From the IMG/VR virus record IMGVR_UViG_3300029319_000149, positions 1 through 39,170 of that record: 39,170 bases of DNA; one strand, 5' to 3'. Source of the DNA: a virus. The position numbers were made by a program, and so were the translations under genes. Position 1 is the stretch's first letter. Each line of letters starts with the position of its first letter. Below the pieces are notes generated by a model. The model was not told the origin of the DNA and did not search any database. It saw only the letters and a program-made list of their open reading frames with translations. This document shows positions 7,396 through 39,170 of this stretch, piece after piece.

Positions 7396-7797
7396 ATGGC
7401 AATAAAAAGGATTTCAAGGGCATTTAAGGACATAAGCTTGTCTTTTACCCCTCATCCAGTCACAAAAGACCTTACTATTCTCAAAAATGAGAATGCAATT
7501 AAGAAGTCTGTAAGAAATTTAGTGCAAACTATCCCTACGGAGAGGTTTTTTAACTCTGCGATAGGATCTGAAGTGCGTGATAGTCTATTTGACTTTGTAG
7601 ATTTTGGTACTGCGTCTGTAATTCAGAACCAAATACAAATTACACTTGAAAATTTTGAACCTAGAATAGAAAATCCGACTGTTGAAGTAAATCCAAAACC
7701 AGATACTAACGAATTTGAGGTTACTGTGTTCTTTACTATTGTTGGACAGGAAGTTCCTATACAAGAATTCACATTCATGCTCGAAGCAACAAGATAA
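7396..7797 (+). CDS. 25: baseplate wedge subunit gp25
   Basis: This 133-residue protein matches the length and layout of T4 gp25 (132 residues), the conserved wedge protein that meets the first sheath ring and gp6 in the contractile tail baseplate. The diagnostic EPR motif is present in 'LENFEPRIE' (E88-P-R90). The N-terminal part (FKDISLSFTPHPVTKDLTIL) and 'IPTERFFNSAIGSEVRDSLF' are also typical of the GPW_gp25 family. It follows a late promoter and abuts gp6, whose ATG begins on the next base after its stop, so the two are translated together. Confidence 0.93.
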   Translation: MAIKRISRAFKDISLSFTPHPVTKDLTILKNENAIKKSVRNLVQTIPTERFFNSAIGSEVRDSLFDFVDFGTASVIQNQIQITLENFEPRIENPTVEVNPKPDTNEFEVTVFFTIVGQEVPIQEFTFMLEATR

Positions 7798-9735: not shown

Positions 9736-9736
9736 T

Positions 9737-18700: not shown

Positions 18701-21700
18701 GGGGAAAGATTAATATACACACCAAATTCAACATTTGAGGGTGTGGCATTAACTGGAATTTCAACTGCAGGTGGTGTTTTAGGTTCTGAAGTATATGCTA
18801 TTAGACTAACAAAAGATACATTTAAAATATCAAAGTCTCGTCCTGATGCGATGGCTGATGTCTCACTTACATTTACTGGTACAGGATCTGGAAACGCTCA
18901 TGAATTTGAGATGTTTAAGAAGAATGAAAAGGCATTAATATCAATCGATGGTGTAATACAGTCACCCATAGCATTTACACCAATAACTACGGATCTTGAA
19001 TATAATATTACAGATTCACAAACAACATTCAGTGTTACAGGAATTTCATCAATACAATCAAATGATATTATCAAAATAAATGATGAATTTATGAAGATCA
19101 CCAACGTTGGTTTAGGAACCACATCAGTTGGTCCAATAACTGAAACAGGATCTGTAAATATTTTAGTTGTAGAAAGAGGTGCGATAGGATCTGCATCAAC
19201 AAATCATAGTTCAGGGGATACAACCAGATTATTCTCTGGTGGTTATAACATTGTCGATAGTACACTTCATCTCACAGATCCACCTACGGGAGATGCAAAT
19301 GCCACACAAAAAAATCAATCGAATTTAGATCCTGTTAGATCAACATTTAATGGAAGAGTATTTCTAAGAAAAGATTACAGTGCAAATAAGGTATTTGATG
19401 ATATTTCTAGTGGATTTACAGGTATAGGTGCAACACATTTATTAAAAGTAGGTGGTGGAACAACAGCAGGTATTACAACAGGAAGTAGTATATTACTTTT
19501 AAATGGAATATATCAAACACCAAGTACATTTAATAATTTAGGAAATAATTATGAGTTTGCAGAGTCAGGTGGAGCAAGTAGTGTTATATTTACTGGAATA
19601 ACATCATCAAATGGTCAGAAAATTATTAGTGATGTGGATGTAAATCAAAATCAACTTCCAAGAGGTGGTGTAATTGTATCACTTGGGTCAACTGGCGGAT
19701 TGGGAGTTGCAAACTTAGCACCAGCAAAAGTTAAAGCAACAACAAATGGAAGTGGATCAATTGTAGGGATTGTTGGTATTGCAACCACTGGTGGTGCATT
19801 TGGAATAAGCACAGCAAAATATAATCATTTAACAGGTCAACTTCAAGTTACAACTTCAAGCAATCATGGATTTAGAAATATCAATGAGTTTGTAAGATTA
19901 GATGGCATGGTATTTAATCCATCATTAACCATACCAAATGATAGAGATTTTAGTATAACTGGAATATTATCAGCCACTACATTTACAACTGACATTGGTG
20001 TAGATTCACAAGCACGTACATATGTTGGATCAGGAACTGCATTTGAGTATTTGGCAGATTTAACATTTGGATCTGGATATCGTAACCCTGTTTCTGTTGC
20101 TGTTACAGATTTATCTGGAAATGGAGCAAGTGCAGACATTACAGCAGAAGTTGTATCTAACACACATATATTTGTAAGTGCATCTACCAACGCTGTCACA
20201 GTTACTGGTGGATCTCCTCTTACACCTACAGGTGCTACATACGATCCAGCAACAGGTAATTTAGTAATTACAAAAGCATCTCATGGTTTAAGCACTAGTG
20301 ATACGGTTGGTCTTGCTACAAATTCATTCGTATTCAGATGTGCACAAGATAATTTCTCAACTGATCATGCATATCCTCGTTCAGGACCTACTCCAAGTTC
20401 ATCAGGTGGAGATCCAGCTCATAATGCAACATTGGCAATAACTGCTACAACAACAAATACATTTACAGTAAATGTTGGAATAACAAATACTGGAACTGGT
20501 GGTGCACTTAAATTTAATATTAATAATGCAGGAACTGGTTATACACAACCACAAATACAGATTTCTTCACCATCTTATGAGAATTTACCAATAGTTGGAG
20601 TTTCAAGAAGAGGTATAGGTTCAACAACCGATACAGGAACAGGTGTAACAATTGATATTGAAGTGGGAGCTGCTAATACCTCAGTGGGTATAGGATCTAC
20701 ATCATATGAAGTTACTAACTTTAAATTAAATAATAATGGATATAACTTTAAATTAGGTGATGTATTTAAACCAGTTGGATTAGTTACTGATAGATTCCTA
20801 AACACCTCATCACTAATAAGTGATTTTGAATTAACAGTCACTGAAGTATTCAAAGATCAATATTCATCTTGGAACTTTGGGCAGTTTGATTTTATTGATT
20901 CTGTAAAAGATCTACAAAATGGAGTAAGAAAGAGATTCCCAATATTTTATAATGGAAGTTTATTGAGTTTTGAAATAGATCCTGATAATCCAGATTCATC
21001 ACTTATAGATCTTGATGCTTTATTGCTTATATTCATAAACGGAGTTGTTCAAATACCTGATGTATCATATAAATTCGATGGTGGTTCATCATTAGAATTT
21101 GTACAAGCACCAGATCCAAATGATGTTGTTGACATTTATTTCTACAAAGGAACAAATGGTGTTGACTCTGTTCAAGTTTCTGCAGGAGCATCAATATCAC
21201 CCACTATAAAAACTGGTGACGTTCTTCAATTAAATAAAATTGGCATATCAACAGGACAAGATCCAAGAACAGTATTTTCAATATTAGGATCTGATGAAGT
21301 TGAAACTAACGTGTATACTGGATTGGGTGTTAATGAATCTGTTTTCAAACCATTCAATTGGACTAAACAAAAAGCAGATAAGAAGATAAGTGGTGAAGTT
21401 GTTTCTAAAATCAGAGACTCAATTGAATCTCAGGTATATCCAACTGCAAAAATTATTAATGATTTAACAACAACTGACAACGAACTATTTGTTGATAATG
21501 CCAGATTCTTTAATTATGAGGAAGATTTCTCAAGCATAGTGATTCCTAATGTTGGGGGTCTAATTGTCGATTCTACAAATCCAGTAGCTGCAGCATTTAC
21601 AGCTACAGTTTCTGTTGGTGGAACCATTCAGGCATTGACTATAACAAATAGTGGTAGTGGTTATGTTGGTTCAACTACATCTATTTCAATATCCTCACCA

Positions 21701-22384
21701 CATGCCATAGGTGCTGGTATAGGTGGCACAGCTACTGCTACAGCAACAATCTCAAATGGTAAAATAACAGGTACAACCATAACTAATCCTGGTTTCGGAT
21801 ATACAACCACTGCCATACCTCAAGTATTAATATCACTTCCTAACGCAATTAAAGAAAAAATTGTAACAATTCCAACTGTTCAGGGATTTGATGGTTCAAT
21901 AACTGCGATAGGTGTTACTGGTGGTGTAAATCATGATACTGCTATTTTCTTTAAAATAAATGCAGATTTGACAAATAACCCCAATTCAGTATTAACCGAT
22001 TTAAAAGTTGGATATCCAGTATACATATCTGGAACACAAGTTGGACACGGTGTTACATCAGTTGTAAGTGATGATTCCACAGTTGTTGGAATTGGAACTA
22101 CATGTGTTGATAATATCTACTTTATAAATCAATATAATGAGGGTGTAGGTATTATTACTTGTAATATAATGACAGGAGTTAATACTGCTGGTATAGATAC
22201 TTCTGGTAGAGATATGGGTATTTTCTCTTGGGGAAGATTTTCTGGATTCTCAAGAGATAATAATGCTATATCAATAGGTGTTACTGGATTAACAGTAGAC
22301 TCTGGATTAACCACTTACCCATCTATCCAGAGAAGAGATTTTGGTCTTAGGGACAATGGTTCATTAAGAAAGGATCTTGGGTAG
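9737..22384 (+). CDS. giant baseplate/tail structural protein in the gp7 position (4215 aa, YHYH domain)
   Basis: An uninterrupted 4215-codon frame lies between gp6 and gp8, where T4 has gp7 (1032 residues, wedge scaffold). The N-terminal ~240 residues (a helical region with 'LYQSKGTEESFRILFNVLYGE' near 212-232) could be the part that joins the wedge. The rest is beta-rich and repetitive, with many 'GxGY..xP' repeats (near residues 753, 961, 1111, 2089, 3446, 3599, 3973 and 4019), 'GIGTTT'-like linkers and at least three 'IxxE...RG..' modules (about 79-133, 1555-1612, 3086-3163). A YHYH-type motif 'GWAYDGNPIYGPYGY' begins at G1271. The last ~60 residues ('GIFSWGRFSGFSRD' to 'RRDFGLRDNGSLRKDLG') look conserved in marine T4-like phages. 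GAGG precedes the ATG. A gp7 assignment rests on synteny only; it may also supply peripheral fibres. Confidence 0.75.
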   Translation: MITTGIDKRVKVQQIIENQIPEFLISESPKAVDFLKQYYISQEYQGGPIDLTDNLDQYIKLDNLTPEVVVGETKLINGITTTSTTIEVSSTKGFPKEYGLFKIEDEVITYTGITTNSFTGCVRGFSGITTYHQENNPTELLFSDTLATNHDDDATVINLSALFLKEFYKKTKKALTPGLENVNFVDNLDVSNFIKNSKSLYQSKGTEESFRILFNVLYGETPKILDLEQYLIKPSTAEFIRREIVLAEALSGNPINLVGQTIIKSTDSETRASISEVEPLTRKGKVYYKIGLFVGFNDVDLIEGTFNVSPKTKVIGNVSAGSSVITVDSTVGFGATGTLVSGISTNIYYSDKSVNQFFGCQNIVGVITSTDDVRSKEFYYGYENGDLTKEVKLRLTGVLSKFVSTSDIRLLTQGENITVRNVGEKILNPSEDRTKKQIFANSWIYNTSSRFLVKNISGANIILLTSDIDKSSLKVGDNIEVLFRNEEEVVATGIVGNIDKDTSTISINNLTLLSNITVLPDPNREYDLRRIINRVSSTKTDVDFGQNILTSDVTNVYNDIPPSSEFYVASNSLPSYQITTELPKSIIPEAVAGNELPNSGYNPNTLKYSIISFPNPVPFITGDEVFYTAQGTVIPDLPEGSYFVEVLTNGNQIRLYKSRSFIPISDFVEFQSLQPGTGTHTFSLVGILDQKIASQKLLKKFPLYPNLKNSSSVKTTPGSTGMLVNGVEITNYKSEDTIFFGPLNRVTLLNNGKNYDAINPPEITLSNPGVGNTTALIRPVITGSVKDIQIDPQDFGIKRIITATIEGGNGDGAVIEPFLVDRKREISFDARLLSQSGGVDNVDETITFQTSHNIASGQPLIYDRNNNPPLGVGPFFGSDLGSVAIGAATTVGIGTTTLINAATYYPEVVNTKTIKLYQTLGDYNAGINTVGFTTTNKIGIHKFKLYYDEKTLKDIRVIDGGSGYENRQVFVKPTGINTVTNTIHFENHGFSHGDNIVYTTAVGIGSTLPTTISGLSTSTGITTTTNFYKVLKLNEDSFRIVSAGLGGTVTSEFERGDYIKFSNKGTGFQVFKYPDIKINLKYELQNTGVGIITATPVVRGPITDMLLYDQGSGYGSDILNLEKSVSVSIKTGKDAELKPIVTDGKITYVEIQTKGREYSSAPDLEVVGIGTGLGAKLRAVVQDGKIEQVIILEGGLQYQQDKTEIKVIPPGTGCKIDVGIRGLTVNRFARYGNEALLETNNKLQYSIVGYSTQIGKDTFGDTGTGHSPIIGWAYDGNPIYGPYGYSDSTDDNSDIKVLTSGYVLDPSNVVNRPNFSNGFFVEDYRFTNAGDLDQHNGRYGRTPEYPEGTYAYFVGINSNTQLPVFPYFIGDSYRTNPTTENFNINQTTFDFDSSNLIRNTYPYKVSDPFADNDFIIESNEITQQTSIVESTTSGSVDSIQIVNSGDNYEVGDSTIFDNTGTGGGGLSVSVRSVSGKEIKSINTTVDTYNATFIWRDPSHVAAYISTAPSLNENDNVVISGLSTTEVKGLAGSHKIGIITAQTVLYQEVPSSSTTGIVTDIYVGTVPENISVGSSIGIGTEKLLVLNAFTDKNVIRVQRGLSSGIHSVSTPVSLIPNFFEIPLQTKVFDSKINDKIYFNPHESIGVGTAVGLGSTATSTLGDLISVVSTPTHSIRLPNHPFKTNQKVTLTKPGKFKGQVGYALTVSKDDGVTTFSIPESGNSQDVFVIRKSRDYIGIVTEVGLTTTSNGLAFVGDTTVGNGSFEYFFESNFDQVTGTLQRIDAVVSVSTAHGLRDTDIVNLSVNPNQSVGIGTSTFINLKFNEDTHNLLINPFTVASSGVTTATNNFNFTAHNLNTGDKVQYISTSVTEGLVNEESYYVFKVDDNNFKLGETYVDVISNPANIIELSSTGGSTGSKHDFSLINPPISVLRDNNLVFGVNDSSLFGYELNFYHDRDYKNEFVSVGNTTNLQVSGVGTVGVGTTSTVTLSYNQDNPSSLYYNIRKSGFISTSDTDVINHNKIHYINSDYDGEYSIFNVPPVVGASYTSFSISLPKVPEKLSYTSEETSVLKYSTKSPRAKGPIDKISVDFGGVGYDSLPSFVSVASTQGTNATLLPDSTNINRVDDIRILNPGFEYSSDPTLKPEAFISPVISIIDADTISKVEVIEGGRNYTSNPNLIIINPDTREEITNGNLESTILSNSLHKVDIVIPPKGLQSITHEVFAVNNDNGSTVSNLQYDSVTGIVTCTLVTPVLGFTTPPFSVNEEIFVEGLEKHGDTGTGFNSVDYGYRFFKITSVNNLNPTKISFDLSSFTTNAGIAKTIQNSYGTIISKDDYPQFKVTQTNSKFSVGEKLLAFVGTSYIPVDLKVSVSTNEFIKIEEIVPGAFNLVGGQLIKGFVSGTIAKINNISKNSGRFDISYSLRQDQGWNDDIGKLSKDYQRTPDNDYYQNLSYSVKSSITYDTLVSSVDRLLHTSGLKNFADVGITTITNAGIVTSSFADILALDFIDQKRVDTINNFDFALDIDTVNGKSKFLKLKNTKLSPYIECKTNRVLEIDDISKLFKSTATSLTQFLELSINARYVTFLVQVRDPNTGNTQISDLILFKDSLNMYTAERAKVHTTSAELGTLIGQMDTSKNVTLKFTPDDPENNDYDLKLLQTSFNTNLTGIGTQSIGFINLSGINTTVSTATTSTIISTNIDNTDAFFATIEVNDLNTDETNFVDLYLTHDGSSSYVAEFFSDTENGPVSNFIGTFTSEIDSNILSLKFENDQPNEVLVRSRVIGIGTTTSGIGTYRFKNSGQLDDTEKTARFESNFSNVSTASTIATFLANQVSSLKGFVRVSSGSTSALHQVLVAHDSTDAHSVQYPFLSIGSTSGIGTFSSTLVGNDLCLNFHPDPLYTGGTNNVQVQVLTEALYTDIDLLNTPLNLQYGTVSESISVGQYDALNGLRSNKTSFVLQNDSIPIFQKQFNPSSTSNLNPTTGVFTIEDHFFETGERLIYTPNSTFEGVALTGISTAGGVLGSEVYAIRLTKDTFKISKSRPDAMADVSLTFTGTGSGNAHEFEMFKKNEKALISIDGVIQSPIAFTPITTDLEYNITDSQTTFSVTGISSIQSNDIIKINDEFMKITNVGLGTTSVGPITETGSVNILVVERGAIGSASTNHSSGDTTRLFSGGYNIVDSTLHLTDPPTGDANATQKNQSNLDPVRSTFNGRVFLRKDYSANKVFDDISSGFTGIGATHLLKVGGGTTAGITTGSSILLLNGIYQTPSTFNNLGNNYEFAESGGASSVIFTGITSSNGQKIISDVDVNQNQLPRGGVIVSLGSTGGLGVANLAPAKVKATTNGSGSIVGIVGIATTGGAFGISTAKYNHLTGQLQVTTSSNHGFRNINEFVRLDGMVFNPSLTIPNDRDFSITGILSATTFTTDIGVDSQARTYVGSGTAFEYLADLTFGSGYRNPVSVAVTDLSGNGASADITAEVVSNTHIFVSASTNAVTVTGGSPLTPTGATYDPATGNLVITKASHGLSTSDTVGLATNSFVFRCAQDNFSTDHAYPRSGPTPSSSGGDPAHNATLAITATTTNTFTVNVGITNTGTGGALKFNINNAGTGYTQPQIQISSPSYENLPIVGVSRRGIGSTTDTGTGVTIDIEVGAANTSVGIGSTSYEVTNFKLNNNGYNFKLGDVFKPVGLVTDRFLNTSSLISDFELTVTEVFKDQYSSWNFGQFDFIDSVKDLQNGVRKRFPIFYNGSLLSFEIDPDNPDSSLIDLDALLLIFINGVVQIPDVSYKFDGGSSLEFVQAPDPNDVVDIYFYKGTNGVDSVQVSAGASISPTIKTGDVLQLNKIGISTGQDPRTVFSILGSDEVETNVYTGLGVNESVFKPFNWTKQKADKKISGEVVSKIRDSIESQVYPTAKIINDLTTTDNELFVDNARFFNYEEDFSSIVIPNVGGLIVDSTNPVAAAFTATVSVGGTIQALTITNSGSGYVGSTTSISISSPHAIGAGIGGTATATATISNGKITGTTITNPGFGYTTTAIPQVLISLPNAIKEKIVTIPTVQGFDGSITAIGVTGGVNHDTAIFFKINADLTNNPNSVLTDLKVGYPVYISGTQVGHGVTSVVSDDSTVVGIGTTCVDNIYFINQYNEGVGIITCNIMTGVNTAGIDTSGRDMGIFSWGRFSGFSRDNNAISIGVTGLTVDSGLTTYPSIQRRDFGLRDNGSLRKDLG

Positions 22385-23979: not shown

Positions 23980-26900
23980 ATGCCACAAAAAACGAATTTA
24001 AATATAAGTCCTTATTATGATGATTTTAATAAGGAAGATAAATTTTACAAAGTCCTATTTAAACCAGGATTTCCTGTTCAAGCGAGAGAATTAACAACTC
24101 TACAATCTTCTTTACAAAATCAAATTGAATCTTTTGGTAGTCACATCTTTAAAGATGGGTCTATGGTTATACCTGGCAATATTAATTTCGACTCACAATA
24201 TCATTCAGTAAGAATATTAGACACTCATTTAGGTATTCCAGTTACTTTGTACCTAGATCAGTTAATTGGTTTAAAATTAAAAGGAAGAACTTCTGGCATT
24301 ATTTTAACGATTGATAGTTATCAATTAGTGGGAACAAGTACAGAAATAGATGATTTAACGATATATGTTCAATATTTACAATCTGGAAGTGATAATCAAA
24401 TATCAAATTTAACTGATGGTGAGCAATTAATAGTTCAAGAATCTTTCATTTATGGTAATACAGCAGTAAATGAAGGTGAAACAGTCTTGACATTAGTTGA
24501 TAGTGGTGCCTCTGCCATAGGATCTGCTGTTGGTATTTCATCTGGAACGTATTTTATTAGGGGTTCTTTTGTAGATGTATCTACAGATAAAATAATTTTA
24601 GATCCATATTCAAATACACCATCATATAGAGTTGGTTTAAATATTGACGAACAAATAATAACTGCCAAGAATGATGATTCTCTCTATGATAATGCAAGAG
24701 GGTTTTCAAACTTTGCTGCACCTGGTGCAGATAGATTAAAAATAACTACAACTTTAGGAAAGAAAAGTTTAACAGACTTCAATGATACAAACTTTATTGA
24801 ACTTTTAAGGGTAGATGAGGGTGAAATCAAAAAAATTGTTAAAAAATCCGATTACTCTCTTATTAGAGATTATTTTGCCACAAGAACATATGATGAGTCA
24901 GGAAATTATTCAGTAGCACCATTTGATGTTCAAGTTTTTAACTCATTAAATAATGGTTTATCAAATGAGGGTATTTTTAGATCAAATGAAGTAACTGATC
25001 AACAAAATACACCATCTGATGATTTAATGTGTGTCAAAGTATCTGCAGGAAAAGCATATGTAAAAGGATACGATATTAGTCTCGATGGATCATCATTTAT
25101 AGATGTCCCTAAACCAAGAGATAAACAGACAGTAGATGCATCACTAGTTCCATATCAAATGGGAACTATTTTAAGAGTTAATAATGTTTACGGTGCTCCT
25201 AAATCAAATACTGACTATGATACATATTGTTTGGAATTATACAACCAAAGAACTGGTTCAAATACTTCTGGAACAGGAGAGTTGATAGGAAAAGCAAGAG
25301 TTTACTCTTTTGCAGTATCTGATGCAGCTTATAGTGGTGATACAACTGAATGGGATTTGCATTTATTTGATATGCAAACATTTACTCGTTTAGTGCTAAA
25401 CCAATCGGTAAGTAATACTGAATTACCAATAACCTCATATGTAAGGGGATTAAGTAGTGGAGCTACTGGATATGCAATAGCAGCTGGTGGAGCAAGCACA
25501 GTTGTTAAATTAACTCAAGTCACTGGTAAATTTGTACAGGGTGAACAAATAATTATTAATGAAGATTCAGAAATATCAAGATCTATTCAAACAGTAAGAA
25601 CTTTTGGTATACAAGATATTAAATCAGTATATCAAGATATGAGTAACGATGGTAATTATGATTCAGATTTTGTTGCTGATACAGTTTTACAAAGCAGAAT
25701 TCCAACTGGATTCAGTATTACAGATGTGTTAAATATTGGGACAACTGGTATTGCTACGTGTGCAGGTAGGAGTTTTACTGGTATTAAAACAGACACAATT
25801 ATTAGATATCAGTTGCCAGATGAAGCAGAAGAGAGATTTAACAGAGTTGTAAATGTTGCAACAGATGGATTATCTATAGAATTAGCTGCTGTTGACACAG
25901 TAACAGGTATATGTAATGGTGCATTACCAACCACATTAGCAACTGCAACATTCTCATTTGGTGTTCCTAATATTAATTTAAATGAAAACAAAGGACTATA
26001 TGCACAATTAGGAAATAGAAATGTATCTGATATTGATTTATCAAATTCTAATTTAGTTATTACTAAAAATATAACTGGTAGAACCACTGATGCAAATGGT
26101 GCTTTAACAGTTAATATTGGTAATGCTGGTATATCGAGTGCATTTTATGAAAATTTTGATGCTGAAAGATATTCAGTTCATTATGATACTGGTATTATTG
26201 AACCTTTAACACAAGATCAATTTGTTTTAGGTATAGATGGTCAATCAGTAACTATTAATGGATTAACTCCTAACCAATCGGATGTTGTTTTAATAGCTAC
26301 ACTTAAAAAACAAGCACTAAAAAGTAAAGTAAAAAATTATATAAGAAGTGAAAAATTAGAGGTTACTAAAACTGGAGTCGGAATTAATACATCACTTACA
26401 GGGATGGATAAAGCCACTGGTTATGGATTGAGGGTTGAAGATAGAGAAATATCGTTAAACATTCCCGATGTGGTAAAAATTATAGGTGTTTTTGAATCAA
26501 CTGATACAAATGTACCTACACTTGATAGATTAACTTTCCCTGATGGTTTAAATTTAAATACCACAGCTATATTGGGTGAAAAAATTATAGGTGATAGTAG
26601 TGATGCTATAGCACAAATTACAGGTTTAATATCTGCAACTGAGGTTGAAATTGCATATCTAACACCAACTAAATTTACAACAGGTGAGGTTTGTAATTTT
26701 GACGAATCAAATATTAGTACAATATTATCACTTATAACTCTTGGTAATAATTTAGATATAACTAACAGATTTCAACTTGATAAAGGGCAAAGAGAACAAT
26801 TCTATGATTATTCTAGATTGGTGAGAAGAGTTAATTTTCCACCTCCAACTAGAAAAGTTTTAATTGTATATGATACATATTCAGTCGCAAGTAATGATGA

Positions 26901-29900
26901 TGGTGATTTTTGCACTGTAGCATCATACGGTGAGGAAAGATTTTCTCAAGATATTCCATTACTAAAAGATGGATTAAGAGCAAGTGATACAATAGATTTT
27001 AGACCTAGAGTTGCAAAATACACGGGTGCAGAATCACCGTTTGCTTTTAAAAACAGAACTTTTGCAACTAGTGGAAATAATCCATCATTTGTAGTGACTC
27101 CAAATGAGAGTTCAATTATTTCATATAATTTTTACTTGCCTAGAAATGATAAAGTTGTTTTAGATACTTTAGGAAACATAGGAGTAATTCAAGGAACATC
27201 ATCAACTGATCCAGTGACTCCTGCAACTAATAGTGATGCGATGGAAGTTGCAACAATTGAGTTACCTGCCTATCTTTATAACCCTGATGATGCAATTATA
27301 AGAGTTGCTGATAATACCAGATATACCATGAGGGATATTGGTAGACTTGAGGATAGGATAGAAAATTTAGAGGAAGTTACTTCATTAAGTTTACTAGAAC
27401 TTGATACAAGAACTTTACAAGTTCAAGATGTAGATGGTTTATCAAGATTCAAAACTGGATTTTTTGTCGATGATTTTAAAAATACAGATCTTTTAGATAT
27501 TAATGATCCAGATTGCAAAGTATCGATTGATCCTGATAATCAAGAATTAATTGTTCCTATGGATTTCTGGTCTATGAAACCAGAAATAGCATTAGATTTA
27601 ACAACTAATGTTGATACAGCAGATTTTTCTCAAGATCTTGAATTATTAGATACGAATGTTCAAAAAACTGGTGATCTAATTACAGTAGCTTATGAAGAGG
27701 TTGACTGGATAGATCAACCACTAGCGTCCAGAGTGGAAAATGTAAACCCCTTCAACATGGTTGAATTTATTGGTACTATTGAATTAAAACCATTTTCTGA
27801 TACTTGGGTTAGAACTATAGAAGTTGATGGTGGTCTTGTAAGGGTTACTGGAGGAAGGAGAAGACGAATCAGTGCAGTAGGTGCTCTCGTTGGTGGTGTC
27901 ATTGCTAATTTTAATCCAATTGGTTTTATACTTGGTGGTATATTTGGTGGTTTATTTGGACGAAGAAGAAGAAGAGTTACAACAAGAACTGAAAGAGTGC
28001 TGACAAGTCGTGTTCCTGATCCTCATATCAGATCTAGAAACGTTGCTTTTTCTGCAAATGGATTAAGACCTGTTGCTAGATTCTATCCATTCTTTGACAG
28101 TGTTAGTGGAATCGATATTATTCCAAAACTTCTTGAAATATCTATGACAAATGGAATATTTTCAAAAGGTGAAACTGTAGAAGCTTATGATGAAAATGGT
28201 GAACAGGTTGCAATATTCAGAATAGCTCAACCTGATCATAAGTTAGGTGATATAAATTCACCCGATGAGACATTTAATGCAAACCCATATGATACAACTT
28301 TATCTTTAGGTTCTGTTTATTCAGCTGCGTCCACTGTATTAAATATTGATGTTTTATCATTATCAGATGAAGCACAAGGAAAATTCTTTGGATATATTCC
28401 AACTAGTAACGTAACTTTATTGGGTCAAAGTAGTGGTGCACAAGCAGAAGTTGTTGATGTAAGATTAGTTGCAGACACTTATGGAGATCTCTATGGTTCA
28501 TTCTTCTTTAGAAATCCATTAACAGATCCACCACCACCATTAAGATTTAGAACAGGAGTCAGTACATTCAAACTAACATCAAGTCCAGAGAATGCGGAAC
28601 CATTACCTGGTAGTCTGTTAATAAGTTCTGGTGAAACTACTTATGAAACAGAAGGTAGAATAGACACATTTACAACCACTATTGTACAAACCGTCAGAAG
28701 AAGACGTAGGTTTGATCCCCTTGCACAATCATTTACAACTGATGAAACTGGTGCATTTTTAACTGCTGTTGATTTATATTTTGGTAATAAAGATACTAGT
28801 CAAAAACTAACAGTTGAAGTAAGAACTATGGAGTTGGGTCTTCCAACTAATTCACTTGTTCGAGATTATGCTCGTGTTGTTCTTAATCCAAATGATATTA
28901 ATATTTCATCTAACGCTGAGTTGCCAACAAGAGTTAATTTCCCTTCCCCTGTATATCTTGAACCAGATACTGAATATTGTATAGTTCTCCTTGCACCTAC
29001 AACGAATCTTTATGAAGCATGGATCGCTCAAATGGGTGAAAGAACAGTAAATACACAAAGTTTACCTGATGCTGAGTCAGTTGTTGTAACTCGTCAATAC
29101 GTTGGTGGAAGTTTATTCAAATCACAAAATGGTACTATTTGGACACCAAGCCAATTTGAAGATCTTAAATTTACTTTGCGTAAAGCACAATTCTCAACCA
29201 CTCCTGGTACTGCGTTCTTCTATAATCCTAAGTTAGAAACAAACTCTGGTATTATTGAGAGATTAAGTCCCAATGCGATTAGAACATTACCAAGAAAATT
29301 AAAAGTTGGTATTCAGACAACAACTAATGCTGGTACAGTTGCTGCTATAAGTTTACCAGGCATCCAAGTAAGTGATGCAACAACAGGAGATCCGATTAAA
29401 GGATTTATTGAAAAAGTTGGAGGACCAGTAAGCACATTTAGTATAACAAATGCAGGAACAGGATATAAACCAAGTCTCTCTAGTGGCACTGCAGTTACAG
29501 GAGTTCCTTTATATGCAATTACTGGAAGGGGTACTGGTGCGACTGCAACAGTGGAAACTAATGCATCAGGACAAGTATCATCAATCGCATTAACAAGTAA
29601 CACAGCAGGTTCTGGATATGCTGTAGGGGATGTTTTAGGAATATCTACTGTTGGATTTGGAACTCATAAAAAAGGAACAGGTGCTGAAATTACAGTTAGT
29701 GCAATCAACGGAGTAAGCACTCTATATCTTAATAATGTACAAGGTGAAGAATTTACATCTGGTCAACCAATAGTTGTTTATGAAGGTGGAAATGCAACAT
29801 CATATGGTAGTACAGAAATTACATCATCCGCTGTTTATGATGACAAGTACAGAGGTAATATAGTAGAAGTTCAACACTATAATCATGGTATGCAAGCTGA

Positions 29901-31176
29901 TACTAACTTGGTTACTCTTGCAAATGTTGAACCAGATACTCCTCCTATTCTACTTACTGATTTCCTAGATGTTGATGATCAGGTAATATCAATAGCAAAT
30001 ACAGAGGCGTTTGCTACATTTAATGGAATATCTACTGCACAAGGATTTATCCAAATCAATAATGAAATTATTTTCTATAATAGTGTTCAACCAAACCAAT
30101 TAGGGATTGGAACAAGAGGTGTTGACAACACTATTATCAGAACACATGATGTAGGTACTGTTTCACGTAAATATGAATTAAATGGTTATGACTTGAGAAG
30201 AATCAACACAGATCATAATATGACCAATATATCTGCTTTAAGTAAAGAGAGAGGTATTGATTCTTACTATCTTGAAATTAATAGAGGTGGATTATCTGAT
30301 GGTGATAGTCAGGTTAGTTTTACAAAAGAGCAAAATGTAGGTGGAGAAAATATTTTCGCATCACAGAACTATCAATTCAATACAGTTATACCTCAGTTCA
30401 GTGCTTTGACACCAAGTGAAAGTACAACAGTTGATGCTCAAGTTAGAACCGTTTCAGGTACGAGTGCTGGTGGTGGAGAAATTCCATTTATTGATCAAGG
30501 TTACGAACCTGTGACTCTAAATCAACCAAATTCATTAAGCACACCAAGATTAGTTTGTTCAAGGATAAATGAAAATACAAGATTGACAGGATTACCATTA
30601 AATCGTTCATTTACATTAGGTGTTAGAATGGAAACTACTGATCCTAATTTATCTCCAGTATTAGATATTTCAAATGCTACAGTGGTTTATCAAAGATCAA
30701 GACTCAACAAACCAATTGATGATTATGCGAAGGATTCTAGATCTAATGTGACAACTGGTGATCCACATGCAGGTGTTTATATCAGTAATAGAGTTGATCT
30801 TAAGAATCCAGCAACATCACTCAAAGTATTAGTTGCTGCTTATCGTGACGAGTCTGCAGACTTCAGAGTCCTTTATCAATTGTTCAGAGAGGATGGAAGT
30901 GAAACAGAATTAGCGTATGAACTATTTCCTGGATATGATAATCTTAACGATACTGATGGTGATAATTTTGGTGATCAAGTAATTGATAATGCCAAAAATA
31001 GTGGTAGATCTGATGCTTTTGTTTCAGGAAGTAATCTTGATGAGTTTAGAGAGTATCAATTTAGTGTTGATGATTTAGATGAATTTACTGGATTTAGAAT
31101 TAAAATCGTATGTAGTGGAGCTAATGAGGCACGATCACCCAGATTTAAAGATTTTAGAGCACTAGCATTAGCATGA
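23980..31176 (+). CDS. large virion structural protein, DUF4815 family (2398 aa)
   Basis: The N-terminus (NISPYYDDFNKEDKFYKVLF, then 'PGFPVQARELTTLQSSLQNQIE' and 'GSMVIPGN') is the hallmark of DUF4815, a structural protein found near gp8 in marine T4-like phages and probably part of the baseplate periphery or fibre attachment. At 1297-1327 a Gly/Ile/Phe-rich hydrophobic stretch lies between RRRR (1293-1296) and RRRRR (1328-1332). A 'RRRRRFDPLAQSF' block near 1573 starts a beta-sandwich (FLTAVDLYFGNKD, EPDTEYCIVL) common to phage tail proteins. GxGY repeats occur near 1826 and 1876, and an 'INNE...RGV' module near 1990-2055. It begins three bases after gp8 and overlaps the next gene by four (ATGA). 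It may occupy the gp9/gp10 role, but no direct homology is visible. Confidence 0.82.
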   Translation: MPQKTNLNISPYYDDFNKEDKFYKVLFKPGFPVQARELTTLQSSLQNQIESFGSHIFKDGSMVIPGNINFDSQYHSVRILDTHLGIPVTLYLDQLIGLKLKGRTSGIILTIDSYQLVGTSTEIDDLTIYVQYLQSGSDNQISNLTDGEQLIVQESFIYGNTAVNEGETVLTLVDSGASAIGSAVGISSGTYFIRGSFVDVSTDKIILDPYSNTPSYRVGLNIDEQIITAKNDDSLYDNARGFSNFAAPGADRLKITTTLGKKSLTDFNDTNFIELLRVDEGEIKKIVKKSDYSLIRDYFATRTYDESGNYSVAPFDVQVFNSLNNGLSNEGIFRSNEVTDQQNTPSDDLMCVKVSAGKAYVKGYDISLDGSSFIDVPKPRDKQTVDASLVPYQMGTILRVNNVYGAPKSNTDYDTYCLELYNQRTGSNTSGTGELIGKARVYSFAVSDAAYSGDTTEWDLHLFDMQTFTRLVLNQSVSNTELPITSYVRGLSSGATGYAIAAGGASTVVKLTQVTGKFVQGEQIIINEDSEISRSIQTVRTFGIQDIKSVYQDMSNDGNYDSDFVADTVLQSRIPTGFSITDVLNIGTTGIATCAGRSFTGIKTDTIIRYQLPDEAEERFNRVVNVATDGLSIELAAVDTVTGICNGALPTTLATATFSFGVPNINLNENKGLYAQLGNRNVSDIDLSNSNLVITKNITGRTTDANGALTVNIGNAGISSAFYENFDAERYSVHYDTGIIEPLTQDQFVLGIDGQSVTINGLTPNQSDVVLIATLKKQALKSKVKNYIRSEKLEVTKTGVGINTSLTGMDKATGYGLRVEDREISLNIPDVVKIIGVFESTDTNVPTLDRLTFPDGLNLNTTAILGEKIIGDSSDAIAQITGLISATEVEIAYLTPTKFTTGEVCNFDESNISTILSLITLGNNLDITNRFQLDKGQREQFYDYSRLVRRVNFPPPTRKVLIVYDTYSVASNDDGDFCTVASYGEERFSQDIPLLKDGLRASDTIDFRPRVAKYTGAESPFAFKNRTFATSGNNPSFVVTPNESSIISYNFYLPRNDKVVLDTLGNIGVIQGTSSTDPVTPATNSDAMEVATIELPAYLYNPDDAIIRVADNTRYTMRDIGRLEDRIENLEEVTSLSLLELDTRTLQVQDVDGLSRFKTGFFVDDFKNTDLLDINDPDCKVSIDPDNQELIVPMDFWSMKPEIALDLTTNVDTADFSQDLELLDTNVQKTGDLITVAYEEVDWIDQPLASRVENVNPFNMVEFIGTIELKPFSDTWVRTIEVDGGLVRVTGGRRRRISAVGALVGGVIANFNPIGFILGGIFGGLFGRRRRRVTTRTERVLTSRVPDPHIRSRNVAFSANGLRPVARFYPFFDSVSGIDIIPKLLEISMTNGIFSKGETVEAYDENGEQVAIFRIAQPDHKLGDINSPDETFNANPYDTTLSLGSVYSAASTVLNIDVLSLSDEAQGKFFGYIPTSNVTLLGQSSGAQAEVVDVRLVADTYGDLYGSFFFRNPLTDPPPPLRFRTGVSTFKLTSSPENAEPLPGSLLISSGETTYETEGRIDTFTTTIVQTVRRRRRFDPLAQSFTTDETGAFLTAVDLYFGNKDTSQKLTVEVRTMELGLPTNSLVRDYARVVLNPNDINISSNAELPTRVNFPSPVYLEPDTEYCIVLLAPTTNLYEAWIAQMGERTVNTQSLPDAESVVVTRQYVGGSLFKSQNGTIWTPSQFEDLKFTLRKAQFSTTPGTAFFYNPKLETNSGIIERLSPNAIRTLPRKLKVGIQTTTNAGTVAAISLPGIQVSDATTGDPIKGFIEKVGGPVSTFSITNAGTGYKPSLSSGTAVTGVPLYAITGRGTGATATVETNASGQVSSIALTSNTAGSGYAVGDVLGISTVGFGTHKKGTGAEITVSAINGVSTLYLNNVQGEEFTSGQPIVVYEGGNATSYGSTEITSSAVYDDKYRGNIVEVQHYNHGMQADTNLVTLANVEPDTPPILLTDFLDVDDQVISIANTEAFATFNGISTAQGFIQINNEIIFYNSVQPNQLGIGTRGVDNTIIRTHDVGTVSRKYELNGYDLRRINTDHNMTNISALSKERGIDSYYLEINRGGLSDGDSQVSFTKEQNVGGENIFASQNYQFNTVIPQFSALTPSESTTVDAQVRTVSGTSAGGGEIPFIDQGYEPVTLNQPNSLSTPRLVCSRINENTRLTGLPLNRSFTLGVRMETTDPNLSPVLDISNATVVYQRSRLNKPIDDYAKDSRSNVTTGDPHAGVYISNRVDLKNPATSLKVLVAAYRDESADFRVLYQLFREDGSETELAYELFPGYDNLNDTDGDNFGDQVIDNAKNSGRSDAFVSGSNLDEFREYQFSVDDLDEFTGFRIKIVCSGANEARSPRFKDFRALALA

Positions 31177-34692: not shown

Positions 34693-36333
34693 ATGGCATT
34701 AAATCCCTTTTTTCTACAAGGATCTCAGAGTGAGCAAAGACTTGTTCAAAATTTAATAAATGAACAACTTCAAATTTATGGTGTTGAAGTAACTTATATT
34801 CCAAGAAAATTTGTTAGAAAACAAACAATAATTAAAGAAGTTCAATCATCTGCTTTTGATGATAATTTTTTATTAGAAGCATATGTAAACACATATGAGG
34901 GTTATGGTGGTCAGGGAGACATCATGACAAAATTTGGTGTAAGTTTAAGGGATGAACTTATTCTTACCATATCAAAAGAAAGATTTGAAGATTTTATATC
35001 ACCATTTTTAAATTCTGATGATGATTACGAATTAGCAACAAGACCTCGTGAAGGTGATGTTATATTTTTTCCACTTGGATCAAGATTGTTTGAAGTAAAA
35101 TTTGTAGAACATGAAGAACCTTTCTATCAATTAGGAAAAAATTATGTATATCAACTTAAATGTGAACTCTTTGAATATGAGGATGAGGTATTTGATACTG
35201 ATATTGAAGAGATTGATTCACAACTTGAGGATCTAGGTTACATATCCACACTACAATTAATGGGAATTGGTGTAACTGCATCTGCGAACGCACAACTAAG
35301 TGTATCCAATAGAGGTTATATTCGTGAAATTGTTCTGAATGATGATGGTAGTGGTTACACAAGCACCCCAACTGTTGCAATATCAACTGCTCCAAATGCT
35401 GCAGGTAATGTAAATGCAACTGCTGTTGCAATCACTACAACAAGAGGTGGGGTATTCTCAATTGAAAGAATCCAATTAACACATGCAGGTATAGGTTACA
35501 CAGAAGCACCATTAGTATCCATAAGAGGTGGTGGAGGTGTAGGTGCGGCTGCAACTGCAGCAGTTGAATTAACAGACTTTGGTATTGTTGACTTTACTAT
35601 GTCAAATAATGGTGCTGGGTATGGTGCAAACCCAATAGTAACTATTACAGGAAATAATACTATTCCAGTTGTTGCAGATGCAATCGTTCTTGCAGATAAT
35701 ACAATATCAGACATCACACTTAGAAACGCAGGTGCTGGATATACAACACAACCAACAGTAACAATTTCAAATCCATCAGTAATAAATGGTGTTGGCAACT
35801 TCACAAGAGGTGAGATTGTTAAAGGATTAAGTTCTGGTGTAGAGGCAAGAGTCAAAGAATGGGATCTTGATACTAAAATACTCAAAATATCTAATGTTGG
35901 TATAGGAACAACAACCAAAGCATTTATTCCTGGTGAAATTATTCAAGCAACTGAATCATTATTCTTTAGTTCAGATTCAATAATATCAGGAACTATTGGT
36001 GTAACTACTACTTTAATTACAGGTATTAATACATCAAATATAAGTTTAAACCAAGAATTAGATCAAATTAAATTTGGGCAAACGATTGTTGTAGGTTCTG
36101 GAGCAACTGTTACAGGTATAGGTGTAAGTTCAATCACCATAAGTATAGTATCGTTAAATACTACTGGTGTTACAACTTCTATTTCCTTTGGATCTACAGT
36201 ATTTTCAAATTATGCTTTAGATTTCTTTGATGAAGATAATCAAGACACAACCTTTGAATCAAATGAAGTCATCGAATCTGAAGCAGATGATATACTTGAT
36301 TTTTCAGAAGGTAATCCATTCGGTACATTCTAA
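34693..36333 (+). CDS. 14: neck protein gp14 with repeat extension
   Basis: The first ~190 residues (NLINEQLQIYGVEVTYIPRK, 'AFDDNFLLEAYVNTYEGYGGQGDIMTKFGVSLRDEL', 'PREGDVIFFPLGSRLFEVKFVEHEEPFYQLGKNYVYQLKCELFEYEDE') are the gp14 core; T4 gp14 has 256 residues, this one 546. The extra part holds four 'G(S/I/A)GY..xP.V.I' repeats at about 219, 267, 307 and 347, then 'GIGTTT'-type linkers and an acidic tail ending 'DFSEGNPFGTF'. The repeats match those of the giant protein, DUF4815 protein and gp8. The core sits with gp13 at the head-tail junction; the extension may face outward. The gp15 ATG shares a base with its stop. Confidence 0.9.
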   Translation: MALNPFFLQGSQSEQRLVQNLINEQLQIYGVEVTYIPRKFVRKQTIIKEVQSSAFDDNFLLEAYVNTYEGYGGQGDIMTKFGVSLRDELILTISKERFEDFISPFLNSDDDYELATRPREGDVIFFPLGSRLFEVKFVEHEEPFYQLGKNYVYQLKCELFEYEDEVFDTDIEEIDSQLEDLGYISTLQLMGIGVTASANAQLSVSNRGYIREIVLNDDGSGYTSTPTVAISTAPNAAGNVNATAVAITTTRGGVFSIERIQLTHAGIGYTEAPLVSIRGGGGVGAAATAAVELTDFGIVDFTMSNNGAGYGANPIVTITGNNTIPVVADAIVLADNTISDITLRNAGAGYTTQPTVTISNPSVINGVGNFTRGEIVKGLSSGVEARVKEWDLDTKILKISNVGIGTTTKAFIPGEIIQATESLFFSSDSIISGTIGVTTTLITGINTSNISLNQELDQIKFGQTIVVGSGATVTGIGVSSITISIVSLNTTGVTTSISFGSTVFSNYALDFFDEDNQDTTFESNEVIESEADDILDFSEGNPFGTF

Positions 36334-37379
36334 TGTTAGGACAATACTATTATCACGAAATACTCAGAAAAACCATAATTTCTTTTGGTACAATTTTTAA
36401 TGACATTCATATCCGTCATCGAGATGGTGCAGGGAAGGAAACAAGTGATATGAGAGTTCCTCTTGCTTATGGTCCTATGCAAAAATTCCTAGCAAGATTA
36501 GAGCAACAACCAGATTTAAATCGTGCGGTTCAGATTACATTACCAAGAATGTCATTTGAAACAACAAATATTGCTTATGATGCAACGAGAAAGGGTGGAA
36601 TAACTCAAACATTTAAAGGAATGGATGGAGGCAATGTAAGAAAAGTATTCATGCCAGTTCCGTATAATCTTGGATTTGAATTAAACATTCTTGTTAAATT
36701 AAACGATGATGCATTACAGATAATCGAACAGATACTACCATATTTTCAACCATCATTTAATGTTACTATTGATTTGGTAAGTGTAATTGGAGAAAAGAGA
36801 GATGTTCCAATTGTATTAGATAATATTTCATTTCAAGATGATTATGAGGGAGATTTTGCAACAAGAAGAGCACTTATATACACTTTAAATTTCACTGCTA
36901 AAACTTATCTCTTCGGTCCTGTATCTGATTCTAGTGAGGGTCTTATCAAGAAAGTTCAAGTGGATTATCATGCATCTGTTGATACTGAGAATGCAAGAAG
37001 AGAGTTAAGATACACTGCAACTCCTCAAGCACTTAAAGATTACAATGATGACAATACAGCAGAATTAAAAACAGATTTGAGTAAAACTAAGACAAGATTT
37101 GATGTTAGTTCAACCACTGCTTTATCTTCTGGTATGAGAATTATTATAGATAAAGAAATCATGAAGATTAAGGAAATCGTTGATGCGAATACTATTACAG
37201 TATTCAGAGGATATCAAAGCACTGCTGCAACACACGTTGCACCAGCATCAATTGATGTATTAACAACAGCTGACGATTTACTTGTTGAACCTGATGATGA
37301 CTTTGGATTTAATGGAAACCTTGAAGTGTTCCAAGATTCTAGAACATTTAGTCCAACACAACAGAGAGACATTGGATGA
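36333..37379 (+). CDS. 15: tail completion / sheath stabiliser gp15
   Basis: The first ~245 residues (IISFGTIFNDIHIRHRDGAG, 'RVPLAYGPMQKFLARLEQQPDL', 'TLPRMSFETTNIAYDATRKG', 'PVPYNLGFELNILVKLNDDALQIIEQILPYFQPSFNVTI') are the conserved gp15 fold that caps the tail tube and last sheath ring and joins them to the neck. T4 gp15 has 272 residues, this one 348. The added C-terminal part (about 254-309) is an 'IIIDKEIMKIKEIVDANTITVFRG' module of the type found in the giant and DUF4815 proteins. It overlaps gp14 by one base and gp16 by four (ATGA). Confidence 0.92.
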   Translation: MLGQYYYHEILRKTIISFGTIFNDIHIRHRDGAGKETSDMRVPLAYGPMQKFLARLEQQPDLNRAVQITLPRMSFETTNIAYDATRKGGITQTFKGMDGGNVRKVFMPVPYNLGFELNILVKLNDDALQIIEQILPYFQPSFNVTIDLVSVIGEKRDVPIVLDNISFQDDYEGDFATRRALIYTLNFTAKTYLFGPVSDSSEGLIKKVQVDYHASVDTENARRELRYTATPQALKDYNDDNTAELKTDLSKTKTRFDVSSTTALSSGMRIIIDKEIMKIKEIVDANTITVFRGYQSTAATHVAPASIDVLTTADDLLVEPDDDFGFNGNLEVFQDSRTFSPTQQRDIG

Positions 37380-37816
37380 ATACCATGACTAACTATGACT
37401 CAATTGATAAAGCGTTAAACACAACTAGTGCTATTGATGTTACTCCCACAAGTAAACCACAAAAAGTGGAATCTACTAAGGATGATGTCAAGAAAGACTA
37501 TGATTACACTCGTGCAAATTTATATTCATTAGTTGAAAAAGGTCAAGAAGCACTTAATGGTATTTTAGAAGTTGCTGGTGAAGGTGGTAGTGCCAGAGCA
37601 TATGAAGTTGCAGGACAGATTATAAAATCAGTTGCAGATACTACTGATAAGTTGATGGACTTACAAAAGAAAGTTAAAGAGGTAGACGAAGATAAGAAAC
37701 AGACAACTAATAACGTAACTAACAACGCACTCTTTGTAGGTTCAACATCTGAACTTTCAAAGATGTTAAAGCAAGGAATACTAAATAATAAGGAGAATTC
37801 TAGTTCTGATGAGTAA
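37376..37816 (+). CDS. 16: terminase small subunit gp16
   Basis: The 146-residue protein compares with 164 residues for T4 gp16, which recognises concatemeric DNA and regulates the large terminase. The central helices 'YDYTRANLYSLVEKGQEALNGIL' and 'GGSARAYEVAGQIIKSVADTTDKLMDLQKK' with 'NNVTNNALFVGSTSEL' are the conserved blocks of the family. The start is taken at 37376 (ATGA overlap with gp15); an ATG at 37385 is a possible alternative. Its last 8 bases overlap the next frame, which is not an obvious gp17 start. Confidence 0.92.
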   Translation: MNTMTNYDSIDKALNTTSAIDVTPTSKPQKVESTKDDVKKDYDYTRANLYSLVEKGQEALNGILEVAGEGGSARAYEVAGQIIKSVADTTDKLMDLQKKVKEVDEDKKQTTNNVTNNALFVGSTSELSKMLKQGILNNKENSSSDE

Positions 37817-39170
37817 TTCTGTTACTATTGAAGATTCAAAAGGAGAAACCTTTGCGGAAGTAATTGATGTTATTGGAGTGTCTGAAGTAAAAAAAGCATT
37901 TCAACAATCAGTGAAAGAAGGTTCACTTCATAAGTGGTTCAAAGGTTCAAAGTCAAAAGATGGCAAACCTGGTTGGGTTAATGTCGTCACTGGAGGAACT
38001 TGTGCTAGTGACGAACCTGGTGAGGGTACACCTAAGTGCGTATCATCATCAAAGAGGGCAAGTATGACAAAAGCAGAAAGACTCTCTGCCTCAAGAAGAA
38101 AAAAGAAAGCAGATCCTGGTCAACAAGCAAAATCTGGTGCTGCAAAACCAACATACGTTTCAACTGATAAAAAGAAGAAAATGAATGAACAGATCAAAAG
38201 AGATGAGTATGGTGATCCAATAGGAGGACCAAAAATTTCTAAGAAACAACTTAAGAAAAATCTCACATCAAATACACCTGACGAGCAACATACTACTACA
38301 ACAAGTGAAGGATATATTGATCTACCATTAGAAGTTGAAATACCAAATACAGATGGTAAATTTAGACTTGGACTTATGTTCCGTGAGAGTTTAGATGTTG
38401 ATAAAGGAATGCTTTTCATATTTGAAGAAGTTGGTCAACATTCATTCCATATGAAGAACACTCGTATTCCACTTGATATTGCATTTGTAAAAGAAAACGG
38501 AATTATTGAAAGTATAAAAGAATTAACACCATATAGTAGTTTACCAGTATATTCAGATGGTGAAGTATTATTTGCAATCGAAGCAAATCGTGGTTGGTTT
38601 ACAGAAAATAATGTAGAGGTCGGAGATGAGATAGTTTTAGGAGAAGCAAAAGATAAGAAAGGTAAGGGTAGTGGATCAAAAGATGCTTGCTATCATAAAG
38701 TTAAGTCAAGATACTCTGTATGGCCAAGTGCATATGCATCAGGTGCATTAGTTAAATGTCGTAAAGTAGGTGCTGCAAACTGGGGTAATAAGTCAGAATC
38801 AGTTGAAATGGGTGAAGCAAAGATGGAAAAAGGTTACATTTCAAATGTTGGAAAAGCAGAAGTGAGAAACCAAAGAAGATTTGGTAAAAAAGGTAGTGCA
38901 ACACCACAAGGATACTTTGGTCAAAAACCATCAGAGAAAGCAGAACTTGCAGTAAAAAGAGGAGAGGAGCACAAAGCAAGAAGAGGTGTAAAGACCAAAG
39001 GTATGAGGGAAGAAGTTATGGATGAAGGTCAAAAGTGTTGGCCAGGTTATGAAAAGAAAGGCACTAAAAAAATGTTTGGTAAAACATATAATAATTGTGT
39101 GAAGAAAGAAGAGTTTTCAGATTGGAGAGATGAACTAGGTTATGAGGGTAAGGACGACTCAAAAAAGATT
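37809..39170 (+). CDS. multidomain protein: DUF5872-like, DUF192 and Cys/basic motifs (3' end outside window)
   Basis: The frame is open for 454 codons from ATG 37809 (8-base overlap with gp16) to the window end. Residues ~39-110 (LHKWFKGSKSKDGKPGWVNV, then 'GGTCASDEPGEGTPKCVSSSKR') are a Lys/Gly-rich DUF5872-like segment. Residues ~170-272 fit DUF192: 'FRLGLMFRESL', 'MLFIFEE', 'HSFHMKNTRIPLDIAFVKENGII' and 'VLFAIEANRGWF'. Residues ~291-328 (DACYHKVKSRYSVWPSAYAS, 'GALVKCRKVGAANWG') are a Cys-containing basic motif seen in other phage proteins. Residues ~407-447 contain 'KCWPGYEKKGTKKMFGKTYNNCVKK' and 'FSDWRDELGYEGK'. No terminase Walker A is seen in this part. It may be an extra gene before gp17, or the start of a longer fusion. 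No function is assigned. Confidence 0.7.
   Translation, partial: MSNSVTIEDSKGETFAEVIDVIGVSEVKKAFQQSVKEGSLHKWFKGSKSKDGKPGWVNVVTGGTCASDEPGEGTPKCVSSSKRASMTKAERLSASRRKKKADPGQQAKSGAAKPTYVSTDKKKKMNEQIKRDEYGDPIGGPKISKKQLKKNLTSNTPDEQHTTTTSEGYIDLPLEVEIPNTDGKFRLGLMFRESLDVDKGMLFIFEEVGQHSFHMKNTRIPLDIAFVKENGIIESIKELTPYSSLPVYSDGEVLFAIEANRGWFTENNVEVGDEIVLGEAKDKKGKGSGSKDACYHKVKSRYSVWPSAYASGALVKCRKVGAANWGNKSESVEMGEAKMEKGYISNVGKAEVRNQRRFGKKGSATPQGYFGQKPSEKAELAVKRGEEHKARRGVKTKGMREEVMDEGQKCWPGYEKKGTKKMFGKTYNNCVKKEEFSDWRDELGYEGKDDSKKI

Follow-up and report, generated by a model that had tools for sequence, protein, structure and literature searches.

Which gene follows gp16 in a T4-like phage, and what might its product do? 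In the T4 record, gp16 and gp17 lie side by side. The stretch of DNA analysed here (the window, a viral IMG/VR contig of 39,170 bases) carries T4-type gp13, gp14, gp15 and gp16 at its right end, followed by an ATG frame on the plus strand (37809-39170) that has at least 454 codons, overlaps the gp16 stop with its start and is still open at the contig end. The preceding gene (37376-37816) matches the terminase small subunit PHROG with an E-value of 2e-53, and both its identity as gp16 and the overlap described in the first-pass annotation were confirmed. Since relatives of the frame occur in 372 phage records and in at least 469 stretches of viral contigs, it is far from being a product of chance.

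It had been left to sequence beyond the window where the frame ends and whether a terminase follows, and the relatives provide an answer. The nearest complete ones (L021, L015, L024 and L033; 481-524 aa) run 27-70 codons past the end point of the window and finish with one more module, DUF6321 (M5), at the C-terminus. In all four of them, a separate gp17 of 548 aa starts 6 bases after the end of the frame, and both terminase domains (Terminase_6N/6C) were verified in the gp17 of L021. An N-terminal extension of gp17, also considered for this frame, is ruled out by this arrangement. Given the separate gp17 downstream in the relatives and the adjacency of gp16 and gp17 in T4, the frame is an extra gene and no part of gp17. 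Judged by its matches to PHROG 3477 (E 6e-76) and PHROG 727 (E 1.5e-69) and by tblastn of the window protein against S-SM2 and Bellamy (E about 1e-96), the gene is a member of the known cyanophage cluster T4-GC 119 (PHROG 3477/727), which is annotated in phages as hypothetical, structural or virion protein only.

Elsewhere in the window, gp14 (34693-36333) and gp15 (36333-37379) are extended at the C-terminus by sequence that matches tail-fibre or virion-structural PHROGs. Two giant upstream frames (9737-22384 and 23980-31176) encode 4215 and 2398 aa and are, judged by their position, probably baseplate or tail-fibre proteins.

The protein is a chain of small modules (Table 1). That several small basic modules are linked in one chain had already been noticed from the sequence, and this turned out to be the key to the gene. 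The proposed DUF192 domain was verified by a profile match of 98.7 bits (cut-off 27, E 5e-30) and by a sequence search in which this segment matched two solved DUF192-type structures. A DUF5872-like character had been assigned to the Lys/Gly-rich first segment (M1), where it did not hold: the Pfam search with M1 gave no match, DUF5872 included, and this assignment is ruled out. A weak likeness to DUF5872 (PF19197) exists in the second segment, M3 (DACYHKVKSRY..), with 15.2 bits and an E-value of 0.034, below the cut-off of 27.5; cousins of M3 in other viruses (L226/L232) exceed this cut-off. The basic segments with Cys were confirmed and are conserved among the relatives. The computed pI is 9.9 for M1, 4.4 for DUF192, 9.7 for M3, 10.1 for the cassette between the MGE and MDE sites and 8.9 for M4; for M5, computed from relatives, it is 11.5. 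DUF6321 (PF19846) reaches 41.5 bits in L021, which is 92% identical to the window protein over M0-M3, and is also present in other full-length relatives; the window frame stops before it. An AlphaFold model of full-length L021 with 34 sequences was unusable (pLDDT 41), which does not speak against one compact fold. M3 alone was predicted as a helical hairpin with a pLDDT of about 75 in the core and a pTM of 0.43. Our literature search found nothing on DUF6321, one giant-virus gene list only for DUF5872, and nothing relevant on DUF192 in connection with phages.

Table 1. Features of the frame behind gp16 (window coordinates; a slash marks a candidate cleavage position)
Feature	Position	Strand	Basis
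Ribosome-binding site AAGGAG, 13 bases 5' of ATG	37790..37795	+	sequence
Candidate polyprotein ORF (T4-GC 119 family), 454 codons, 3' end missing	37809..39170	+	ORF call and homologues
Acidic N-terminal segment M0, aa 1-37, pI 4.6; ends ..SVKE/GSLHKWF, possible cleavage site (V-x-E)	37809..37919	+	
Module M1, aa 38-127; basic, two Cys, without Pfam match	37920..38189	+	
Short segment KRDEYGDPIGGPKISKK..TTTTSE, aa 128-167	38190..38309	+	
DUF192 domain (PF02643)	38331..38633	+	profile match
Candidate prohead-protease site L-G-E/A, strict L-x-E, DUF192/M3 junction	38637..38645	+	
Module M3, aa 280-328, KDACYHKVKSRYSVWPSAYASGALVKCRKVGAANWG; distant DUF5872 relative; predicted helical hairpin	38646..38792	+	
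Candidate site M-G-E/A; L021 equivalent L-G-E/G	38808..38816	+	
70-aa cassette between MGE/ and MDE/; missing in 92%-identical L021	38817..39026	+	
Candidate site M-D-E/GQKCW	39018..39026	+	
Module M4, aa 407-435, GQKCWPGYEKKGTKKMFGKTYNNCVKK, two Cys	39027..39113	+	
Linker EEFSDWRDELGYEGKDDSKKI, truncated by contig end; relatives continue with IEE/ or LQE/, then M5 (DUF6321)	39114..39170	+	

Profiles built for M0, M1, DUF192, M3, M4 and M5 allowed us to map the chains of the relatives. Complete chains span about 370 to 1,140 residues; the order and set of the modules vary widely, and the linkers between them differ greatly in length and sequence. Each of about 360 cyanophage records contains M3 as a single copy, and with Roseobacter phages the total is 366. 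DUF192 is optional: it is found in the versions of S-SM2 and Bellamy and is missing from those of S-SM1, S-E7, S-T4 and S-CREM2. The chain of S-SRM01 (L004, 4662-6488) contains a DUF5661 domain and no DUF192, which suggests that alternative domains can occupy the predicted polyprotein. Other marine viruses encode M5 and M3-like proteins in small genes of their own, which start at the module borders (MPKDACY..), and an M3-like gene lies near 22 of the 80 M5 loci of these viruses. Cassettes are exchanged at the candidate cleavage sites: indels between relatives border on such a site on the right in 25 of 36 cases and on the left in 22 of 36, compared to 28% expected at random linker positions.

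The T4 prohead protease gp21 cleaves after L/I-x-E (PMC9026906). When the contexts of the modules were listed, the residues directly before a module were in most cases hydrophobic-any-Glu, whatever the linker. Examples are LNE/VKDKKGKGSG..KDACY and ITE/VKDRKGKGSG.. before M3, and LDE/KCW, IDE/KKAQKCW, ITE/AKKCW, LGE/DWQ and IEE/AKSPAWQ before M4 or M5. For statistics, the contexts were thinned to less than 40% identity and compared to 2000 shuffles of the linkers. At the M4 junction, [LIVMF]-x-E directly precedes the module in 34 of 39 contexts (shuffle mean 5.9, maximum 14) and the strict form [LI]-x-E in 22 of 39 (mean 2.4, maximum 8), and a hydrophobic P3 residue is commoner for Glu residues at this junction than for the other Glu residues of the linkers (p 6e-9). 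The motif also precedes M1 in 11 of 16 contexts, where 2.2 were expected. For M3 (10 of 13, 4.1 expected, shuffle maximum 9) and M5 (6 of 10, shuffle maximum 6), few independent contexts were available, the statistics are weaker and the P3 test is not significant. Fused or long M5 proteins carry the motif in 41 of 62 cases, standalone short M5 genes of other viruses only in 12 of 71 (p 5e-9), mostly due to the start MAE...

The N-terminal targeting peptides of these phages show the relaxed P3 set (F, L, I, M, V) as well, plus a few Q, and the maturation-type sites of gp23 read ILTE/T in S-SM1, LLTE/A in S-CREM2 and FLTE/A in T4. The window protein itself has one strict site (LGE/A) and M-x-E or V-x-E at the other junctions. 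By their motif, the module junctions resemble substrates of a gp21-type prohead protease encoded by the phage itself. The cluster T4-GC 119 was known before and uncharacterised; the gp21-type motif at its module junctions is new here.

It might be argued that the motifs are simply by-products of Glu-rich flexible linkers in an ordinary multi-domain virion protein of the neck, the tail or the head surface. The linkers are indeed rich in E and K, and several phages annotate the gene just as a structural or virion protein. However, shuffles of the very same linkers fail to reproduce the motif, and near-identical T4 targeting peptides (see below) coincide precisely with the starts of genes or the borders of modules, which makes this explanation improbable. 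A second alternative is a scaffold of the prohead core of the gp22/gp67/gp68 type, which would be required for assembly, cut by gp21 and largely expelled. Scaffold proteins, such as gp22 of S-SM1 and T4, possess numerous [LI]-x-E sites too. In the present family, however, the sites gather at the module borders instead of being spread throughout, the modules are conserved and retained through all shuffling, DUF192 and alternatives such as DUF5661 look like cargo, and module proteins have been found in virions of S-CREM2 (PMC10665884). We regard a scaffold as an unlikely candidate.

A second line of evidence comes from capsid-targeting peptides. IPII and IPIII of T4 start with MKTYQEFIAE/A (T4 record). 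Very similar starts are found in separate M4-M5 or M5 genes, namely MKTFQEFQAE/CWKTHKKV (L126), MKTYKEFKE/DWQKKSGK (L149) and MKTFNQFQAE/CWK, and in a further gene for these modules, MKTFSQYFGE (L143); some of the genes with a targeting peptide have Q at P3 (FQAE), outside any hydrophobic consensus. In fused chains, the peptides are internal, as in GLKTYQQFVDE/CWKTHKKV (L107), GLKTFSEFQAE/CWK (L130) and GLKTFKQFVE/GAAWTKK (L139), and S-H34 has GKTFQDFIEE/KDACYHKV ahead of M3. The internal matches within module proteins are all located 7-25 residues ahead of M4 or M5, and nearly all the remaining matches are at gene starts. By sequence, these two positions appear to reflect the fusion or fission of genes resembling those of internal proteins. 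The window protein has no N-terminal targeting sequence (its N-terminus is MSNSVTIEDSKGETFAEVID), and a scan of the window's genes for such N-terminal sequences found none. None of the papers searched links cyanophages to capsid-targeting sequences.

A further small module, SWSNKYKKSIDC, occurs in Bellamy as a gene of 51 aa with the N-terminal MKSFKQFQE (L003, 4429-4584), in S-SM2 as an internal copy behind RKTFEEFRE (L002, 3880-4308), and fused into the L036 polyprotein.

The position of the gene had led the first-pass annotation to propose a role at the packaging motor, with a chain of modules that bind DNA, portal or terminase. This idea draws on the place of the gene between gp16 and gp17 in many cyanophages and, with gp16 preceding it, in the window, as well as on the mostly basic character of the modules. 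We found no specific support for it. In P-TIM68, S-H34, S-CREM2 and L036/L045, the module set lies near cytidylyltransferase/nrdA, a long way from the terminase genes. This speaks against a role bound to the packaging locus. S-CREM2 even splits the set, with M5 at the terminase locus and M1, M4 and M3 at another place. Moreover, presence in virions and targeting peptides suit contents of the head better. A packaging accessory is therefore hardly to be expected here, although the basic pieces may bind the packaged DNA.

Virion data exist for S-CREM2, where gp160 and gp137 were detected by mass spectrometry (PMC10665884, Table 3). We identified gp160 as an M1-M4-M3 protein with the junctions NLEE/KKNCW and EISE/GKKDACY, and gp137, encoded between TerS and TerL, as an M5 protein (MNE/DWQ-M5); the S-CREM2 module proteins are without DUF192 and differ in arrangement from the window protein. 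The virion list also includes a SAM hydrolase, a kinase and the cytidylyltransferase gp154 (PMC10665884), whose N-termini are MKDFDSFLEE, VKRFDAFLTE and MKNFSSFLTE/A, respectively. The N-terminal pattern derived from T4 is present in 7 of the 217 S-CREM2 genes, and five of the seven are in the virion list. Once genes recognised as structural are set aside, 5 of 7 with the pattern are listed versus 23 of 180 without it (p 9e-4, in a test that was not fully blind, as the pattern was derived from T4 but applied after some of the S-CREM2 N-termini had been seen). In that study, peptide coverage is low, no search for new N-termini is apparent from the text, and its authors note that some detected proteins were perhaps not separated from the virions (PMC10665884).

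Other S-CREM2 proteins show similar features. Near the N-terminus of the virion-detected Cas9-like nuclease gp12 (L253, record 7704-10313), the stretch KKPLRFASFMAE/AAVD resembles a capsid-targeting sequence, and the nearby gp6, gp13, gp14 and gp15 start with capsid-targeting-like peptides, too. The N-terminus TGFTGAAAPEGPVAGYDPLMG of gp160 (aa 26-45, L252) and of its S-H34 homologue (L250) is closely similar to the N-arm DGFTGAAAPGGPNAGFDPVMI of the phage's own major capsid protein.

Taken together, the junction motifs, the capsid-targeting peptides and the virion mass spectrometry point to the head interior, from which we infer that the product of the gene in T4-like cyanophages is a modular polyprotein destined for the inside of the head, of the type of the T4 internal proteins and cut by gp21 in the prohead. 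We put the probability of this reading at roughly 70%. Targeting peptides would bring the pre-protein into the prohead core, where gp21 would cut the chain after [L/I/V/M/F]-x-E at the module junctions. One gene would thereby supply a series of cargo modules, every one of them preceded by a cleavage site of its own, and the predicted products M1, DUF192, M3, M4 and M5 (DUF6321) would have about 50-130 residues and would for the most part be strongly basic and contain two Cys. The released pieces would remain associated with the packaged DNA and may pass into the host along with it. The basic pieces might neutralise the packaged DNA, or they might, like T4 IPI, act in the host once they have been injected (PMC9026906, PMC3012670).

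Cyanophage virions contain many proteins without a known role. It is conceivable, with slightly less than even odds in our estimation, that the targeting and protease route is an open cargo system of swappable cassettes, each with its own peptide and cut site, which are chained or encoded as separate genes. If so, a single gene could stock the head with a set of distinct small proteins that accompany the DNA into the host, and elsewhere the same route would carry enzymes, for which the SAM hydrolase, the kinase and the nucleotidyltransferase of the virion are examples. The pattern of N-terminal or internal peptides would then predict head-bound proteins in highly abundant ocean viruses, and the occurrence of a highly conserved M3 inside a hypervariable protein would be accounted for. 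We know of no earlier polyprotein-style internal-head precursor in T4-like phages, and the present one, if confirmed, would be the first.

The closest known counterparts are the T4-GC 119 proteins of S-SM2 (SSM2_109), S-SM1 (SSM1_115), Bellamy (gp123) and Syn9 (gp114), which share a homologous chain of M1, M3, M4 and M5, are often encoded between gp16 and gp17 and, in S-SM2 and Bellamy, include DUF192; the window version differs from them by its own N-terminal segment and the 70-aa cassette. M3 and M5 have counterparts in the small DUF5872 and DUF6321 proteins that other marine viruses encode, often close together; these are single genes, and most of them have neither a targeting peptide nor a cleavage motif. 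Among the inner-body and ejection proteins of phiKZ and SPN3US, many sit inside the head and are cleaved after x-x-E by a protease akin to gp21 (PMC9026906); the phiKZ motif is S/A-x-E, unlike the one described here, and the comparison is one of reported features. The family resembles IPI, IPII, IPIII and Alt of T4 in its candidate gp21-type L/I-x-E sites and its small, mostly basic predicted products, and the targeting peptide MKT[YF]xxF..E of the T4 internal proteins also stands ahead of the same modules in relatives of the window protein. The T4 proteins carry one cargo per gene behind one N-terminal targeting sequence, whereas several modules are joined per chain here. Since the window copy is without an N-terminal targeting sequence and its sites are mostly non-strict, we describe it as probably working like the T4 internal proteins and do not file it as a member of that group.
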